Positions 46,695 through 55,108 of a DNA stretch of 64,000 nucleotides are shown here, piece by piece (within the stretch, counting starts at the first letter, position 1; every line of letters starts with the position of its first letter). Made by a program: the position numbers and the translations under genes. Origin of the DNA: an uncultured Lachnospiraceae bacterium (GTDB lineage: Bacteria; Bacillota; Clostridia; Lachnospirales; Lachnospiraceae); contig CAMEDC010000009.1 in NCBI GenBank assembly GCA_945913255.1, forward strand, positions 1 to 64,000, read 5' to 3'. Below the pieces are notes generated by a model. The model was not told the DNA's origin and did no database searches. It saw only the letters and a list, made by a program, of their open reading frames with translations.

Positions 46695-47369
46695 CTACTT
46701 TTTCGTGGTTAGCTGCGTGTATTCTCCCTTTCTGTCGTAGGAATCCAATAAATAACTCTCATCCGTCAGAATACAGTCTATCTCCTGTTCATCCTTTCTA
46801 TACTTGCTGTGTCTGCGCAAGTCTTCTTTCGGACGCTGCTGCTTTGCATAAAAAGAGTCCTTCGCCTGAAATCCGGAAAATTTCCCCGGCAAATGCTCTG
46901 CCAGCTGCCCTGTGACCGCCTTGATTCTTACGCGTAGCTTCTGCACCGGTGTCGTATGCGTTGCTGTCCTCTCCTCCAATGGCTGGAAGTATGGATTCAC
47001 CTGAATCTGTTTTTCCACGGCTCTGGTTTCAGATGCCTGTACTCCCGCAGTACGTCCTCCCATGTCCGCACCTAACTGTGCCATCGTCGGAGATGCTCCG
47101 TTTTTCACTCCAGACTCCCCGATGCTTTGAATCTCGTTGCTCCCCCAGATATCCTGCCAGATTCTCCGTCCACTCTGCAATGTTTTCTGAAGCCATGCAA
47201 AAAGAGAAGTCTGCGCTTCCTGCTGTTGTTCTGCCATGGTAAACTGTGAAGCTTGTGCCTGCCCCGCAGCTGCGGCAGCACTACTTCCTGTTTTATGCAT
47301 ACTTTCATGGTCATGCAGACATTGTGTCACATGATGGTTTTCAGAACCGTGTATTCCCCCTAACTGCAT
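46695..47369 (-). CDS. Unrecognised soluble protein after the TIR/RyR cassette
   Basis: 224 residues, no family recognised. The N-terminus is His-rich (GSENHHVTQCLHDHESMHK), then comes an Ala/Gln-rich stretch (about 30-52) and a short amphipathic region with three Trp (LFAWLQKTLQSGRRIWQDIW). The second half is basic and ends KKDEQEIDCILTDESYLLDSYDRKGEYT-like. No membrane helix or signal is seen. It is only 22 bases after the HD/RyR gene on the same strand, so it may be the fourth gene of that cassette, or an unrelated surface/secreted protein. No strong ribosome binding site (AATGAGGGAATGAT). Confidence 0.5.
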   Translation of the reverse strand: MQLGGIHGSENHHVTQCLHDHESMHKTGSSAAAAAGQAQASQFTMAEQQQEAQTSLFAWLQKTLQSGRRIWQDIWGSNEIQSIGESGVKNGASPTMAQLGADMGGRTAGVQASETRAVEKQIQVNPYFQPLEERTATHTTPVQKLRVRIKAVTGQLAEHLPGKFSGFQAKDSFYAKQQRPKEDLRRHSKYRKDEQEIDCILTDESYLLDSYDRKGEYTQLTTKK

Positions 47370-47391
47370 ATCATTCCCTCATTTTTTCACA

Positions 47392-49350
47392 CTATCCTAT
47401 TCGATAGATGCGAAGCCCATCATACTCATCAATCAATTTTAACATCAGGTTCATGGGTGCAGTATCTTTGTTCTGTTCTTCAACATCCAGTTCATCATAA
47501 TCCGGAATCAATAATTTATGCGTTCTGGTGCACTCACGCAATCTGCTGATTGCCTTCTTTACAGACCGCTTATCACTGCCGTCTGCCCAGCCTGCATTAA
47601 TCACCAATTCCTCGTTTCCATATGTCTCATCATACCACCAGCCCATGGATAACTTTTCATTTACCCAGCGGGTATGTTCCAGAGGACCAATAATCTCCAT
47701 CTGGCTTTCCGTAAAATGCTCCAACAATTCATTTTCTACAGGCTTATCTGTATAAAAACAACCGATTCTATCCAGATGTCTGGAAAATTCCTTTGCCTGC
47801 AAAATATTAGAAAGTTTATATTCCAAGGACATCTGCTCAAATGCCTCTTCCAGTTTATCCTGACTGACATCATTATCATTTCCAAACAGATAACGACCAT
47901 TTAACGCCGTTGCAAAATGATATAAATGCAAGAAGCTGCTATTTGACAAATTGAGCTTTGTAATTCTATTATTCTTCATGAAGGACACATTTATTGTAAG
48001 TCCCGGGGCTCCTTCCCTGTTAATTTTGATAATTTCCTCGATGTCTTTTAAAAAAGTACATCTTTCATCTGTCATTTTCCGATAAGAACCCTTGGCATAC
48101 CCTTTTTTATATTCCAGACGACTGTCATAAAAATACTCTGCCTTAATATGATTCCCCTCAAATGTCAAGTCACACCACATTGCATGGAGTTCCTGTCTGG
48201 AATTCTGTCCATAAGAAGTTCTATCCCAGCATTGCAGTTCATCACACAGCATAAGAATATACGCCAACGGATGTAATTTTAATTCAAAAGGTTGATTGAT
48301 TGCTGCATTCTTTATATTCGTAATTGAAAATTTATACATACTGTTATGCAGCATAATTGCCGAAACAGCATCAATATCCGCCACTGTAAGGTTTCTTGCC
48401 CCTACCACTTCCAATAGCTGGTGCAAAAACAGCACACCGCTGAAATAGGCATGATCCATGAAACCATTAAAATCATCCGGAAAAGCAGGCTTTTTATCCA
48501 AAACTTCTTTTTCCAGCACCTCCGCGGATTCTCCGTATACTGCCTCCAGTTTTTCCGCAATATTGCGGGCAATCAGTTCGTTTATGCTTCCTTCCTTCAA
48601 CGCATATCCCGTCAACCGTTCCAGCTCTGCCTGATCTGATTCAGAGAGCTGCACAAACTGCTTTATACCTTTATAAGCAATAAACGGAACATCCTTAATG
48701 GTATCTCCAAAATATGATTTTACCTGTTCAAACGGCAGTTCAAAAGGATAGCCGATATCATGAAACAAAGCGGTCATCCCCCAATACTTTAGGAAATGAT
48801 GTGCTGCTGCTCTGTCATCTTCGAGAGAATAATATTCCTTATAGCCGTTCCGGATAAATTCATTTTCCTGATAAATTGCCAGTCCCAAAACCAATACATA
48901 AACGGAATGGGAATAATGGTCACGATGTTTCATCAACAGTGCACTGGCATTCGCTTCAAACTCTGCCAGCATCTCAATCAGTTTTTTGGACTTACCGTAT
49001 TCTCCGATAAACATTTCCAGATAGCAGAAATATACATCAAAAGCATCCTGTGCCACTCCCGACTGCATAAAACGATGTATTGCATTTTCAAGGCAGATTC
49101 TGTCAATATCTTTTTCCATATTATATGGAATTTGCCCTAAAGATGCACTTTTTCCATCAAAATCCTGAAGTTCATTTTTCTCGGTATCAAAACGCAGGTC
49201 TTCACAGCTTTCTCTTAAGAACTCCAGACATGCTCTCTCCAAATTGCTGATATTCTTTTTTAATGAAATCTTTCTCGGTTCCCTCGGAAAATCAATTCCG
49301 AATTTTTCCAAATTCAATTTTCTCATTTTTGTCAGTGCTGTATACGCCAT
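47392..49350 (-). CDS. HD-domain protein with C-terminal RyR-like domain
   Basis: 652 residues, soluble. An HD-type metal-binding core is seen: His residues in KHRDHYSHS (142-148), HD at 197-198 (ALFHDIGYP), His300, MLHN with H335, and D370 (LMLCDELQCWD). HD domains usually cleave phosphate esters of nucleotides. The last 100 residues (about 545-650) fit the bacterial RyR domain: EHTRWVNEKLSMGWWY, then THKLLIPDYDELDVEEQNKD. It starts one base after the membrane RyR gene, with GGAAAAGGGA as site. By context it may destroy or make a nucleotide signal sensed through RyR. Confidence 0.8.
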   Translation of the reverse strand: MAYTALTKMRKLNLEKFGIDFPREPRKISLKKNISNLERACLEFLRESCEDLRFDTEKNELQDFDGKSASLGQIPYNMEKDIDRICLENAIHRFMQSGVAQDAFDVYFCYLEMFIGEYGKSKKLIEMLAEFEANASALLMKHRDHYSHSVYVLVLGLAIYQENEFIRNGYKEYYSLEDDRAAAHHFLKYWGMTALFHDIGYPFELPFEQVKSYFGDTIKDVPFIAYKGIKQFVQLSESDQAELERLTGYALKEGSINELIARNIAEKLEAVYGESAEVLEKEVLDKKPAFPDDFNGFMDHAYFSGVLFLHQLLEVVGARNLTVADIDAVSAIMLHNSMYKFSITNIKNAAINQPFELKLHPLAYILMLCDELQCWDRTSYGQNSRQELHAMWCDLTFEGNHIKAEYFYDSRLEYKKGYAKGSYRKMTDERCTFLKDIEEIIKINREGAPGLTINVSFMKNNRITKLNLSNSSFLHLYHFATALNGRYLFGNDNDVSQDKLEEAFEQMSLEYKLSNILQAKEFSRHLDRIGCFYTDKPVENELLEHFTESQMEIIGPLEHTRWVNEKLSMGWWYDETYGNEELVINAGWADGSDKRSVKKAISRLRECTRTHKLLIPDYDELDVEEQNKDTAPMNLMLKLIDEYDGLRIYRIG

Positions 49351-49351
49351 C

Positions 49352-51349
49352 TTATCCCTTTTCCTTTTCTTCAGAGTTCATTTTGCATTTTATTAACAGG
49401 GGCATCAAGTCATACATACATGTATCTGCATGAGTTTCCCGCAACTCATCCCACGGGCACATACAGGGGTTGATTCTGTTCACTTCATCTTTTGATCCCT
49501 TTTTCCATCCGGTCGATGCCATGAAATAGCACCACCTTCTATGTTCCATTCGAACCATTTCGCTTATGAACGGATTCCGATTACAATCACTTAATTCTTC
49601 TGCAAACTCTTCTATACTACCGCCATAATGCCAAGTATCCCCAACCTTCTTTAACAGCCTACCATTTTCTCCGAACATCCTTTCAATATAATCGGCTTCT
49701 ATCTTTTCAAACATAATGCTTTTCACAGAATCATGATACGCTAATGCCCTGTTTGAATTTTTTTTGAACAGCTCCAGTTCGCTCCAATTGTCCGGATTAT
49801 TCTTCTTTGTTTTCAAAGAGGACTTTGCTTGCTTTTCTGCTTCAACCAAAATGGAATTATAGATTTCATTATACTTTCTGGATTCCCTATCCAGCGTATC
49901 ATTCAGTAAATCATCCAAAGTAATCGTGTGAATATCTTCCTCTATCACGAACACGTTACTGTAAGTACTTTTATTATCTCTTAAATATTTGGCCATCTGT
50001 TTGTCCGTTTCCATTCGGACATTCATTCTCACTCTGCCTGCATCATCAGCAGGGGCATTCTCTCTCAAATACCGTTCTACTTCCGCCATACAGTACAGAC
50101 TAATCTCCGGATTTCGGATACAGATTGCAACATTGGTATATAGTCCATCGCCATCGGGATTGCCATTCTTTTTCAGGAGCGTCTGAAATTCCTTATACCG
50201 AATATCCATCCCGAAAAACCGAATTCTTAACTCCCCGTCCGCCTTATCGGAGGGAATCGAAAACTCGTTTTCACTAATTTTCACATATTTACTGCTAAAA
50301 TTATTTGCAAATATACTTTTTCTTTGTTCCAGATTAAAATCTACCACATCAATCAGAATGGGATTTTTACTGCTGACAACACCAAGATTCATGGCCTGTA
50401 GAAGAATCTGCTGCCCCATTCTGCCAAATCCGATAATCAAAAGATGCAGTTTCCATTCATCCAACGGCTTATCCGTCCCCAGATAATACTGATGTAAGGA
50501 ACAGTCCTCCAACATTTTTCTTACTCTGAGTTCCGGCATACTCACAAGTTCCAAATCGCTGTAGGGGCTCTGTGTAGGTCCTTTCATTCGAATCTCTGTA
50601 TCATAATAGTCTTCAACAATTCTGCGGATACCATCATCCTCGCATCTGCAATAAAACTTCACTCCCTCTTTTAATGCGGCATGATTCTCTTTAGAATGGA
50701 ACATGTGATACAGCGAAAAATTTCTTGCAGAAGATTCTTCAAATAAGACAATGACATCTGCCCTTTGCAATTCCATTCGTGCGAAAAAGTATTTCAGCTG
50801 ATCGGGCGAAAGCTTCAGGCAATCAATATTATGTATCGTAATCCCACTCTTTAATAATTCCAGTTCTTCCTTGGAAGGTACCTCATTTGATACCAGATAT
50901 ATTTTTTGCCGTTTCTTTTTAAACTCTTTGTATTCACTTCCCAGCAAAGCTTTTACTTCATCGTTATAGCCAAAAATGATAATATGCTTCCATTTCTTAT
51001 GTTTAATTCCCCAATTTCTCAATCGAAGCCATTTTTCCAACACTTTATAGCAGAATGCCAGTGTACAATATGGTGCCGTAAACACTGCAACCGCATAGGC
51101 ATAACCGATTATTGCTTCCAATAAAGAGGCATTTTCATTTAAGACGCTCAACACATCTTTAATAGAGATCTCAGATTTGAAGCCAAATGCTTTGATACTG
51201 TTCTGGATGATCAACAAAAACCGGAAAAAAGAATTGCGATAAACCTCCGTGCTATAATAACAGAGACCCTCTGCAAAAGTAACCAGAAAAGATACGATTG
51301 ACAGAACAATTAAAAATCTTCCAACTTTTTTATCTTTTGCCTTTCCCAT
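49352..51349 (-). CDS. Membrane protein with two TrkA-N-like Rossmann domains and C-terminal RyR-like domain
   Basis: 665 residues. Two membrane helices (about 11-32 and 77-103) flank a 45-residue loop with no TVGYG-type potassium filter. Then come two Rossmann folds like TrkA-N/RCK: HIIIFGYNDEVKALL (122-136) and LLIIGFGRMGQQILLQAM (303-320). The C-terminus (about 597-655) is RyR-like: EHRRWCYFMASTGWKKG (602 on), then NPCMCPWDELRE. It resembles an ion-channel-like sensor whose RyR and Rossmann parts bind nucleotides inside the cell. It lies 11 bases after the TIR gene and one base before the HD/RyR gene. Confidence 0.8.
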   Translation of the reverse strand: MGKAKDKKVGRFLIVLSIVSFLVTFAEGLCYYSTEVYRNSFFRFLLIIQNSIKAFGFKSEISIKDVLSVLNENASLLEAIIGYAYAVAVFTAPYCTLAFCYKVLEKWLRLRNWGIKHKKWKHIIIFGYNDEVKALLGSEYKEFKKKRQKIYLVSNEVPSKEELELLKSGITIHNIDCLKLSPDQLKYFFARMELQRADVIVLFEESSARNFSLYHMFHSKENHAALKEGVKFYCRCEDDGIRRIVEDYYDTEIRMKGPTQSPYSDLELVSMPELRVRKMLEDCSLHQYYLGTDKPLDEWKLHLLIIGFGRMGQQILLQAMNLGVVSSKNPILIDVVDFNLEQRKSIFANNFSSKYVKISENEFSIPSDKADGELRIRFFGMDIRYKEFQTLLKKNGNPDGDGLYTNVAICIRNPEISLYCMAEVERYLRENAPADDAGRVRMNVRMETDKQMAKYLRDNKSTYSNVFVIEEDIHTITLDDLLNDTLDRESRKYNEIYNSILVEAEKQAKSSLKTKKNNPDNWSELELFKKNSNRALAYHDSVKSIMFEKIEADYIERMFGENGRLLKKVGDTWHYGGSIEEFAEELSDCNRNPFISEMVRMEHRRWCYFMASTGWKKGSKDEVNRINPCMCPWDELRETHADTCMYDLMPLLIKCKMNSEEKEKG

Positions 51350-51360
51350 CGCTTCCTCTT

Positions 51361-53025
51361 TTACAAAAAATTCTTTTTGACCTTTGATCTTGTATTTTTC
51401 GTAGCCTCTTTCAGTTCCACTCCGTCTATGCTGACACTTGAATTCGGTTCATCACAAAATGCAATCAGTTTCTCTATCAGCTTTACTTTTTCCTTCATTG
51501 CATAAGCACCGCCGACTGTATATTTCTTACCGTTTACTTCATACACATTGCAGGAAGCAAAATAAACCGGTCTGTCTTCTTTCGCCGTTGCAGAGTAATC
51601 CTCTACAGCCACACAGGTTAAGTTTTCTGCTATTTCTTCCAGCAGATCCGGATGCTTTTCGATAAATGCGCTGAAAACATTGCCTATCATATCTGTCTGA
51701 TTGGTTGTGTATTCCTTTCCGAATATCCTGTAGGACACACTCGATGAATTTCCCTGTCCTGTACCTGATGTTCCCACTGCCGTAGCCTTTGCCTTGGGAA
51801 GTTCTACTTGTTCCGACGAGAAAATTGTGTCATCCTCCCCGACAATCTGAAGCAACGCTGCCATTTTTTTCAGTTTGTCATTGACACCATAGGCAGTTCC
51901 CACGCAAATGGATTCTCCATTTTCAAATTCAAAGAACTGGCAATTTCTAAAATAACTTGGCATACTTGGCGTTACATTTTCCTTTTTTGTATAATCCACC
52001 TTGGAAATACAATTCATTCCCTTATATTCTGCCAAATCCGCAATATATTCCGGATGCCGTTTTAAAACCTGCGCAAAGAATCGCAGCATCATATCTGACT
52101 GGTTCTCGGTATATTTTTTGCCGTACAAAGTATAACTGATATCACCTGTCACAGAAAAAGCTTTCTTCTTGCCGGGTTCTTGTTCTACATCCTCTTCAGT
52201 TTCCTCTTTATCGACAATCTCTTCCTTCTCATTATCAATTTCTTCCTGTTGCTCCGCTTTCTGACTCGTCCCCTGCTCCTGTGTCTTTACAGTCTGCGGT
52301 ACAACCGTGGTAGCATCCTCCAGTAAAAGATTTCGATTTTCAAAGACTTCGGGGTGTACTTCATCTCTGGAAGCCGCATCTTTAATCGTGTTAATCAAAG
52401 AATTAATAGATTTATCAAACAGATTGTCTTTCAGCTCCGCATCATCCAGAATTTTTTGAAATGCCTCGACAATATTTATTACCGCAAAATTTTGTTTGTG
52501 TATTTTCGACTCACATTCCTGTCTGATTAATCTCATTTTTTCCGCGTATCGTCCGGTTGTCGTACAATTCAGCAGAATATTAAGCACCTCCGCTTCCGCA
52601 GGTTCCATTTTCACAATGGCATCTTCCAAATCAACATCCCTTGTTAATGTCTCAAATAATGTTCTTTTTTCCTCAAGATAAACAGGAATAATCTGTTTGC
52701 CATATTTGATGGCTGTGAACAATTCCATTAGTGTGGCATAACTCTGCAGATACTCCTTACTGACAAAAAGTAAAACTGCCGAAGCACGTTTCATATTCTT
52801 TTCCATATCATCCAGCCATGAATGGTTGGTATCATCAAAATTTTTATCCGAATATATCCGTAATCCTCTTCTCTGCAAATCAAAGACTTTTCCCTCAAAT
52901 ACCTTTTTCCAGTTATCGCTCTTGTAACTGATAAACACATACCCTATTTTATCCTTATATGTGGTAATCTGAAGCTTCTCCAAACTTTTGTCTCTTTCTA
53001 AAACCTGCTCTTTTGTAAGTCCCAT
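51361..53025 (-). CDS. TIR-domain protein with duplicated C-terminal domain
   Basis: 554 residues from the ATG at 53025, which has AGGAGG ideally placed; an ATG at 53040 would put that site inside the gene. The TIR domain (about 25-145) has GYVFISYKSDNWK, GLRIYSDKNFDD (BB loop area) and SKEYLQSYATLMELFTA with Glu101, the expected NAD-cleaving glutamate. After a helical part and an acidic Glu/Gln linker (about 248-285) come two copies of a 105-115-residue domain (296-410 and 430-538), each starting SY-x-x-(Y/F)GK-x-YT-x-NQ(S/T)DM. First gene of the cassette; it probably acts as the NADase or cyclase. Confidence 0.87.
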   Translation of the reverse strand: MGLTKEQVLERDKSLEKLQITTYKDKIGYVFISYKSDNWKKVFEGKVFDLQRRGLRIYSDKNFDDTNHSWLDDMEKNMKRASAVLLFVSKEYLQSYATLMELFTAIKYGKQIIPVYLEEKRTLFETLTRDVDLEDAIVKMEPAEAEVLNILLNCTTTGRYAEKMRLIRQECESKIHKQNFAVINIVEAFQKILDDAELKDNLFDKSINSLINTIKDAASRDEVHPEVFENRNLLLEDATTVVPQTVKTQEQGTSQKAEQQEEIDNEKEEIVDKEETEEDVEQEPGKKKAFSVTGDISYTLYGKKYTENQSDMMLRFFAQVLKRHPEYIADLAEYKGMNCISKVDYTKKENVTPSMPSYFRNCQFFEFENGESICVGTAYGVNDKLKKMAALLQIVGEDDTIFSSEQVELPKAKATAVGTSGTGQGNSSSVSYRIFGKEYTTNQTDMIGNVFSAFIEKHPDLLEEIAENLTCVAVEDYSATAKEDRPVYFASCNVYEVNGKKYTVGGAYAMKEKVKLIEKLIAFCDEPNSSVSIDGVELKEATKNTRSKVKKNFL

Positions 53026-54115: not shown

Positions 54116-55108
54116 TTGGCATCTGCCGCATTCTACAATATTATCTTGGGCATTTCGCCCGGAAGACACATCTATTTTATCTGCATCGGAGGTATAAAAA
54201 AGATACTATCCTTTATTGCCGGGCAACGCGGTCTGAAAATTGTATACGACTCCTTCTTTCAGAAAATCATGTCTCCTCTCCTTCATCCCGAACGGCTCGA
54301 AAGCTTTCTCTCGGAACTCATGGGCGAAGCCATACATATCGAAAAAATACTGCCTCGGGAAGGTATCCGTCTTTCTGCTGAAGCCAGTTTCATTATCATG
54401 GACATACTGGTTCAACTCTCAGATGGTTCCAGAGTCAATGTGGAGATGCAAAAAGTTGGCCTATATTTTCCCGGTGAACGCAGCAGCTGTTATACCGCCG
54501 ACGCTATCATGAGACAATATACAGAACTGAAAAATCGTCTAAAAGATAATTTCAGCTATAAGAAAATGAAACCATTTTATCTCATCATTCTGATGGAATA
54601 CAGTTCTGAACCCTTTAAGGAGGTGGCACCTAACTATATCCACACAGAAAAAATCTGCTATGACAGCGGTGCCAAGGTTACTTCTCTCTCAAAAATCAAG
54701 TATATTTCGCTTGACACTTTCCGAAATACAGTTCAAAATATAGATAACAAGTTAACGGCGTGGCTTACCTTTTTCAGTTCTGACGAACCTGCCGATATCA
54801 TTGCACTTATCAATGCGTATCCTGAATTTTATGAACTTTACCAAGAAATTGCAGAATTCCGAACAAACCCAAAGGAGTTGATATATATGTATTCTGAAGC
54901 ACTGGCTATTGCTGATCGTAATACCATACGCCTAATGATTGATGATATGCAGGAAGAGCTTGCATCCCTGACAAAACAGGTTGCTGATACAGCGAACAAG
55001 CTCAATGTAACAAAAAAGGAGCTTGCTGCCAAAGACGACGAAATCGCTGCCAAAGACGACGAAATCGCAAAACTTAAAGCCGAAAATGAAAGGTTAAAAA
55101 ATAAATAA
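54116..55108 (+). CDS. Rpn-family PD-(D/E)XK nuclease/transposase-like protein, start uncertain
   Basis: Up to 330 residues. The nuclease core is recognisable: KIVYDSFFQKIMSPLLHPERL, then IIMDILVQLSDGSRVNVEMQK with the Asp and Glu-x-Gln/Lys active site, PGERSSCYTADAIMRQY, and a C-terminal helical part ending in a coiled coil with the direct repeat AAKDDEI-AAKDDEI. Members promote DNA recombination or are transposase-like. The start is unclear: the open frame opens at a TTG (54116) without a site, while a good GGAGG (54188-54192) precedes an in-frame ATA (54203), not ATG. Relatives are often longer at the N-terminus, so it may be 5'-truncated or have lost its start. Confidence 0.65.
   Translation: MASAAFYNIILGISPGRHIYFICIGGIKKILSFIAGQRGLKIVYDSFFQKIMSPLLHPERLESFLSELMGEAIHIEKILPREGIRLSAEASFIIMDILVQLSDGSRVNVEMQKVGLYFPGERSSCYTADAIMRQYTELKNRLKDNFSYKKMKPFYLIILMEYSSEPFKEVAPNYIHTEKICYDSGAKVTSLSKIKYISLDTFRNTVQNIDNKLTAWLTFFSSDEPADIIALINAYPEFYELYQEIAEFRTNPKELIYMYSEALAIADRNTIRLMIDDMQEELASLTKQVADTANKLNVTKKELAAKDDEIAAKDDEIAKLKAENERLKNK

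Follow-up and report, generated by a model that had tools for sequence, protein, structure and literature searches.

In Thoeris, a TIR enzyme (ThsB) is paired with an effector (ThsA) that carries a SLOG domain, and in animals it is an old question whether the RyR domains of ryanodine receptors bind isomers of cyclic ADP-ribose (cADPR). The same question is also raised in the available part of a study of phage proteins (PMC13232231), which reports that phage RyR domains bind 2'cADPR/3'cADPR, and that the phage protein RyDEP binds ADP-ribose (ADPR) through the RyR pocket residues H75/W78/H100/D117 (His100 being the phosphate-binding residue, and a His and an Asp the catalytic pair) and degrades 2'/3'cADPR. 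Six of the eight RyDEP homologues tested there bound the signals, and other tested homologues, described as highly conserved, did not cleave them (PMC13232231, same part). DUF4062, in turn, is described in the available part of PMC13174449 as a TIR-like NADase, which hydrolyses nicotinamide adenine dinucleotide (NAD) to ADPR and acts by depletion. Here we compare these systems with a three-gene cassette in a DNA stretch of 64,000 nucleotides (hereafter the window, i.e. positions 1 to 64,000 of contig CAMEDC010000009.1 of an uncultured Lachnospiraceae bacterium), in which a TIR gene is followed by two genes for proteins with RyR domains.

The cassette lies on the minus strand (47392-53025). The first gene of the operon encodes the TIR protein (gene 1, 51361..53025; 554 amino acids from the ATG at 53025, or 559 from 53040), the second a two-helix membrane protein (gene 2, 49352..51349; 665 amino acids, hereafter 2TM-RyR) and the third an HD/phosphodiesterase-fold protein (gene 3, 47392..49350; 652 amino acids, hereafter HD-RyR). 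Both partners of the TIR protein have a C-terminal RyR domain of the PF02026 type, and the genes are separated by only 11 bp (gene 1/gene 2) and 1 bp (gene 2/gene 3), so that the open reading frame (ORF) coordinates bear out the tight spacing given in a preliminary description of this DNA. On the strength of sequence comparisons, we lean towards reading the cassette as a TIR-signalling operon, most likely anti-phage, in which the RyR proteins would sense an ADP-ribose-type signal and act as effectors.

Co-occurrence of TIR and RyR genes

Relatives of gene 3 are common, being encoded in 289 stretches among 84,980 species genomes (the genome_contigs collection). The best 80 of these 289, together with one viral contig, make up the 81 HD-RyR loci considered below. 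A TIR ORF is present in 54 of the 81 (local hidden Markov model (HMM), E<=1e-3), and in 38 of the 46 loci flanked by 4 kb or more on each side, of which 23 have it within 1 kb on the same strand; in 25/81 a same-strand TIR gene lies <=300 bp away. The background, 121 TIR_2 matches in 150 family genomes, amounts to about 0.5% per 18 kb if an average genome of 3 Mb is assumed, and is to be read as a rough comparison, since the local TIR HMM was trained on TIR proteins of RyR loci, its threshold differs from that of the Pfam background, and the background genomes represent a narrower group than the one that supplied the 81 loci. Judged from these gene neighbourhoods, the TIR-RyR link is real.

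The co-conservation of all three genes that the preliminary description had looked to was found as well: full-length relatives of the whole set occur in three further loci, once in the same order (L055) and twice in the order HD, TIR, 2TM (L022 and L023). In five loci (L075, L101, L112, L116 and L128), HD-RyR is accompanied by a shorter RyR protein matching the 2TM-RyR profile. Within the family, gene 3 has a match in 13/299 genomes and gene 2 in 10/299, the window's own genome being counted in both; of the 13, two match with the RyR end only (G295, G087) and one locus is cut by a contig end (L049 in G123). Some of these genomes and the named records seem to be the same assembly (e.g. G231 and L056), and the overlapping HD-RyR sets were not summed.

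The membrane protein shows a similar association. Among ten full-length 2TM-RyR loci (the window plus L018-L026; L027 and L028, which match in the RyR part only, are excluded), a TIR gene adjoins in seven, lies about five kb off in one (L019) and is absent from two (L020, L021). Four of them (L018, L024, L025, L026) combine TIR and 2TM-RyR without HD-RyR, although other genes may belong there. The gene 2 query found no relative in genome_contigs or the phage collection and the gene 2 family alignment none in viral_contigs; the plasmid collection holds one, in a Fusobacterium record. In a separate sample drawn across the phylum, PF02026 occurs in 9/398 genomes, with TIR near the PF02026 gene in six (G395, G588, G672, G422, G261, G604), DUF4062 near it in two (G508 and G627, 180 and about 830 bp away) and neither in G207; the stretches L160 and L161 are from one genus, and G395 gave two overlapping ones (L158, L159). 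In the family set, DUF4062 adjoins an HD-RyR-like gene in G050. These DUF4062 genes (L051:3782-7525, L156:10311-13517, L157:5830-6408) stand near RyR in genomes without TIR_2. That DUF4062 can take the place of TIR next to one and the same sensor is the strongest point in favour of RyR reading an NAD-derived product, and because the DUF4062 product is reported as ADPR, the ligand may just as well be plain ADPR as a cyclic isomer.

A number of other arrangements were seen around RyR genes. A family of ~530-amino-acid proteins adjoins HD-RyR on the same strand in 16/81 loci, and the member at L094:10045-11637, with TIR and LRR genes beside it, has weak SLOG (YAcAr) and DUF4231 matches; these matches and neighbours make the L094-type cluster a candidate four-gene sister system. 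Near TIR genes, RyR also occurs as a stand-alone protein of about 95 amino acids (L163:8231-8512, L164:8293-8580), and elsewhere a single TIR gene is flanked by two different RyR genes, all on the same strand (L162:7812-13066). No gene 3 relative was found in the plasmid collection, and the phage collection contains one, a fecal virome record; in this unverified 'phage' scaffold (L169:2081-6509, MT836912.1) the HD-RyR and TIR genes overlap.

Domains of the three proteins

In gene 1, the TIR domain (52648..52938, minus strand; residues 35-131 of the 559-amino-acid ORF) matches TIR_2 (PF13676) at E 2.4e-12, with 47.8 bits against a Pfam gathering score of 28, and is the sole TIR_2 match of its genome. 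The start at 53025 is preceded by a strong ribosome-binding site (AGGAGG). The catalytic glutamate, which is Glu101 in the 554-amino-acid form and Glu106 in the longer ORF, is invariant in an alignment of 11 TIR proteins, together with Phe36, Ser38, Tyr39 and Asp65, and the protein is thus a TIR protein with Glu101, as first described. With the ThsB_TIR model, gene 1 stays below the cut-off (16.1 vs 21.2 bits). Its C-terminal half (51361-52200) looks duplicated by eye, with two repeats of ~110 amino acids; no Pfam family matched this module, and a similar one is present in L055, L060, L112 and L116. The TIR proteins of RyR loci vary in their added parts, which include WD40 and TPR modules and adjacent LRR proteins, and several are large; this variety fits a variable sensing of infection.

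In gene 3, the HD/PDEase-fold domain (47989..49014, minus strand; residues about 113-454) contains His148, His197-Asp198, His300, His335 and Asp370. H148, H197, D198, H300 and D370 are invariant in 82/82 HD-RyR proteins and H335 is kept in 60/60; we take these residues to be the metal ligands of the H...HD...D type. The AlphaFold model (pLDDT 87) can be aligned with structures of PPX/GppA and of cyclic-nucleotide phosphodiesterases, so that fold and invariant residues both confirm the HD identity. The RyR domain follows at 47398..47877 (minus strand; residues about 492-651, with His559, Trp562, His611 and Asp629) and matches a local RyR HMM at 8e-45, the HMM having been built with this sequence included. 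In gene 2, hydrophobic segments at residues 12-30 and about 74-92 agree with the two-helix membrane protein proposed earlier, and the RyR match is located at 49430..49567 (minus strand; residues 595-640).

Taken alone, both proteins remain under the PF02026 cut-off of 27.4 bits (gene 2: 19.2 bits, E 0.0015; gene 3: 11.4 bits, E 0.4), and it is the family profiles that identify the C-termini as RyR. The ten-sequence 2TM-RyR profile matches an RyR1 chimera (6uhi, E 1.7e-12) and, with E of about 2e-6, bacterial RyR structures (4n05, E 2.3e-6), and the HD-RyR profile matches RyR3 at E 0.009, i.e. more weakly. Two relatives clear the Pfam cut-off on their own (L128 with 44.8 bits, L101 with 30.6 bits). 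L128 has a further match, of equal length on both sides (416-463 vs 72-119, E 0.019), to 35tm_A, an entry of 139 residues named 'Ryr domain-containing protein'; that 35tm_A is RyDEP itself is our unconfirmed guess. In Foldseek, the highest-placed RyR entries for the HD-RyR model are 9ol4 at rank 16 and, at rank 17 with prob 0.63, an RyR protein of an Olleya phage. The 50 VIA-align matches listed, which barely test the regions outside residues 28-459, include no RyR chain.

The residues that form the RyDEP pocket can be assigned in both proteins by alignment and spacing (not by superposition). In HD-RyR, the equivalents of H75/W78/H100/D117 are His559 (82/82), Trp562 (82/82), His611 (80/82) and Asp629 (82/82). 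In gene 2 they are His603, Trp606, Asn627 and Asp647, the last just past the match, i.e. three of the four RyDEP residues are kept. The part of the preliminary description that was left unconfirmed is the TrkA-N identity of gene 2: there is no Pfam match to TrkA-N, hhalign gave a probability of 2% for the whole protein and of 3% and 34% for its two regions, and the structure model is poor (pLDDT 45). The two Rossmann-like regions are assigned at low confidence.

Boundaries and origin of the cassette

The G+C content of the cassette is 39.3 (TIR), 38.5 (2TM-RyR) and 39.2% (HD-RyR), against 47.3, 47.6 and 50.4% in three flanking genes, which we take, from their sequences, to be metG, rpe and a transketolase-like gene. 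Because of this difference (38-39% vs 47-50%), the cassette was probably acquired by horizontal transfer. The span first proposed, 46695..53025, holds for the three genes (47392-53025) and fails for the ORF at 46695-47369, which was rejected as a fourth member: it has a G+C content of 49.6%, and in the one genome of the same genus that was sampled, a homologue (34% identity, E 4e-36) lies upstream of metG, the corresponding 16 kb of that genome being without the cassette. By this comparison the ORF is a host gene, and the cassette therefore is probably an insertion that ends at 47392. Beyond rpe, a plus-strand ORF (54116-55108) resembles, by eye, a PD-(D/E)XK transposase-family (Rpn-like) protein.

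Proposed mechanism and alternatives

In the mechanism that we favour, the TIR protein would detect infection, perhaps through its duplicated C-terminal module, and its TIR domain would, as suggested by its family and the conserved glutamate, convert NAD into an ADP-ribose-type signal, e.g. a cADPR isomer or ADPR. This signal would bind the C-terminal RyR domains of both partners, a step that is supported by the co-conservation, by the near-invariant pocket residues of HD-RyR and by the published binding by phage RyR homologues. The binding would then activate both effectors, so that the two-helix protein may perturb the membrane or ion flow and the HD enzyme, with its phosphodiesterase fold, may hydrolyse a cellular nucleotide. 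As a TIR protein can have either RyR protein as its sole RyR partner, both would be effectors or sensor-effectors. The earlier proposal that a TIR signal is sensed by RyR proteins thus gains support from co-conservation, from DUF4062 near RyR in three TIR-less genomes and from the binding by phage RyR domains (PMC13232231, available part).

Several observations weigh against this reading. TIR is absent from 8/46 well-flanked HD-RyR loci, and for L056, which encodes the second-closest HD-RyR found (61-63% identity), there is no TIR either at the locus or in the 82%-complete genome. Of the eight genomes behind TIR-less RyR loci, five are without any TIR_2; in these five, DUF4062 is near RyR in three and elsewhere in the genome in two. 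Seven more genomes with TIR-less HD-RyR loci were tested for DUF4062 and six have none, and it seems that some RyR proteins may work with unrecognised or distant partners. The catalytic glutamate stands in the strict alignment column in 41/55 loci, the window counted, and in 13 domains of a TPR-type group a Glu comes, by eye, two residues later. In gene 2, Asn627 replaces the phosphate-binding His100 of RyDEP. Foldseek gave no match at E<=0.001 for the full HD-RyR model against PDB and BFVD, and in PADLOC gene 1 has a weak TIR-region match (E 0.0039) and genes 2 and 3 none. Finally, two loci could not be kept as consisting of TIR and HD-RyR only, because they have candidate effector neighbours of the PDDEXK type (L060) and the SLOG/DUF4231 type (L091).

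The loci with HD-RyR as the only evident partner matter for the role of gene 3. An earlier count put them at 9 of the 25 adjacent loci, via a codon-based gene caller that missed genes; after a recheck of all ORFs, six loci have TIR and HD-RyR without another close same-strand gene (L057, L073, L087, L099, L102, L113). Among these, L099 and L113 alone have no same-strand ORF at all up to a distance of 300 bp, and a further locus, L114, is doubtful as it contains an unexplained 157-amino-acid ORF. The preliminary description had the HD protein remove the signal, in which case 2TM-RyR would be the effector and HD-RyR an off-switch phosphodiesterase that hydrolyses the TIR product, its RyR domain either delivering the signal to the HD site or acting itself as a RyDEP-type glycosidase. 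The phosphodiesterase-like fold and ligand set would suit this role, and so would the RyDEP catalytic pair (His, Asp), which is kept in HD-RyR, RyDEP being reported to degrade 2'/3'cADPR (PMC13232231, available part). Other candidate effectors also occur nearby, namely the SLOG/DUF4231-like neighbour of ~530 amino acids (16/81 loci; one member scanned), and a PDDEXK gene elsewhere. The roughly six loci that look like TIR plus HD-RyR only, however, would then lack any further effector, unless the TIR protein itself takes this role by depleting NAD, and the other RyDEP homologues tested did not hydrolyse the signals in spite of their high conservation (PMC13232231, available part). Signal removal by the HD protein is therefore the less likely role, and we regard an off-switch as rather unlikely.

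Depletion by the TIR protein could also be the output of the whole cassette, with the RyR proteins as regulators of ADPR or NAD status that restrain or license it and no diffusible signal being involved. The DUF4062 family found near RyR, reported to hydrolyse NAD to ADPR and to act by depletion (PMC13174449, available part), would fit this arrangement, as would the large size and the TPR or WD40 modules of several TIR proteins, but the enzymatic and membrane domains of the RyR partners look like outputs and the genes are shuffled between loci, which makes it improbable in our view. We give still less credit to a housekeeping or stress unit of NAD metabolism: the PADLOC match, being weak only, is compatible with it, whereas the patchy distribution (among the 299 family genomes, 13 match gene 3 and 10 match gene 2), the low G+C content, the absence from the corresponding 16 kb of the same-genus genome and the relatives that adjoin a PDC-S26-like gene (L101) and a PD-T4-6-like kinase gene (L079) all argue against it.

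Comparison with known systems

From the recurrence of TIR-RyR pairs across many bacteria, the RyR domain probably serves bacterial immunity as a receptor for its ADP-ribose alarm signals. More tentatively, and with doubt and belief nearly in balance, RyR (R12) could be a general bacterial receptor for the ADP-ribose-type immune signals of TIR and TIR-like enzymes, interchangeable on membrane, HD and other effectors. If this is true, TIR immunity would gain a host-side sensor class, and the presence in phages of RyR proteins that target TIR signals would be explained. The RyR sponges and glycosidases of phages would go back to receptors captured from their hosts, and animal ryanodine receptors would have inherited their adenine-ligand pocket from immune signalling; the cassette would also offer a small, tractable bacterial model for the binding of cADPR isomers by RyR domains. 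In the literature, no account of TIR with host RyR partners and, as the preliminary description had supposed, no experimental work on this exact gene set was found among the papers listed, which do not include the TIR-system preprint of Yirmiya et al. 2025 (doi 10.64898/2025.12.03.692087), where such systems may be described.

Clover shares with the cassette an HD-superfamily phosphohydrolase effector (the dNTPase CloA), control by a nucleotide ligand and an anti-phage role, but its partner is a nucleotidyltransferase instead of a TIR protein, the available part of its description (PMC12265719) mentions no RyR domain, and the HD fold of the cassette aligns with phosphodiesterases and PPX/GppA. 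Swarozyc (PMC13174449, available part) resembles it in having a TIR-like NADase, DUF4062, whose family has genes near RyR in three genomes; the TIR_2 domain of the cassette is canonical, however, Swarozyc is described as acting by NAD depletion, and its main text, as far as available, does not use the term 'RyR' (0 occurrences). RyDEP and the phage RyR sponges belong to the same PF02026 family and have the same pocket residues, but act as phage counter-defence (PMC13232231, available part), whereas here a host RyR domain is fused to membrane or HD domains and encoded with TIR.

The resemblance to Thoeris is one of organisation: in both, the TIR enzyme is accompanied by a protein with a sensor domain that is expected to recognise an ADP-ribose-type signal and to govern an effector domain. 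The cassette proteins gave no match to SLOG or Sir2 (SLOG up to E 1, Pfam) and no Thoeris model matched in PADLOC, although the loci of some HD-RyR relatives add a SLOG/DUF4231-like protein. Where Thoeris has SLOG, the cassette has RyR, and it has two effector-like partners, the two-helix membrane protein and the HD enzyme. Provisionally, the host TIR-RyR system would be an unreported variant of TIR-signal defence.
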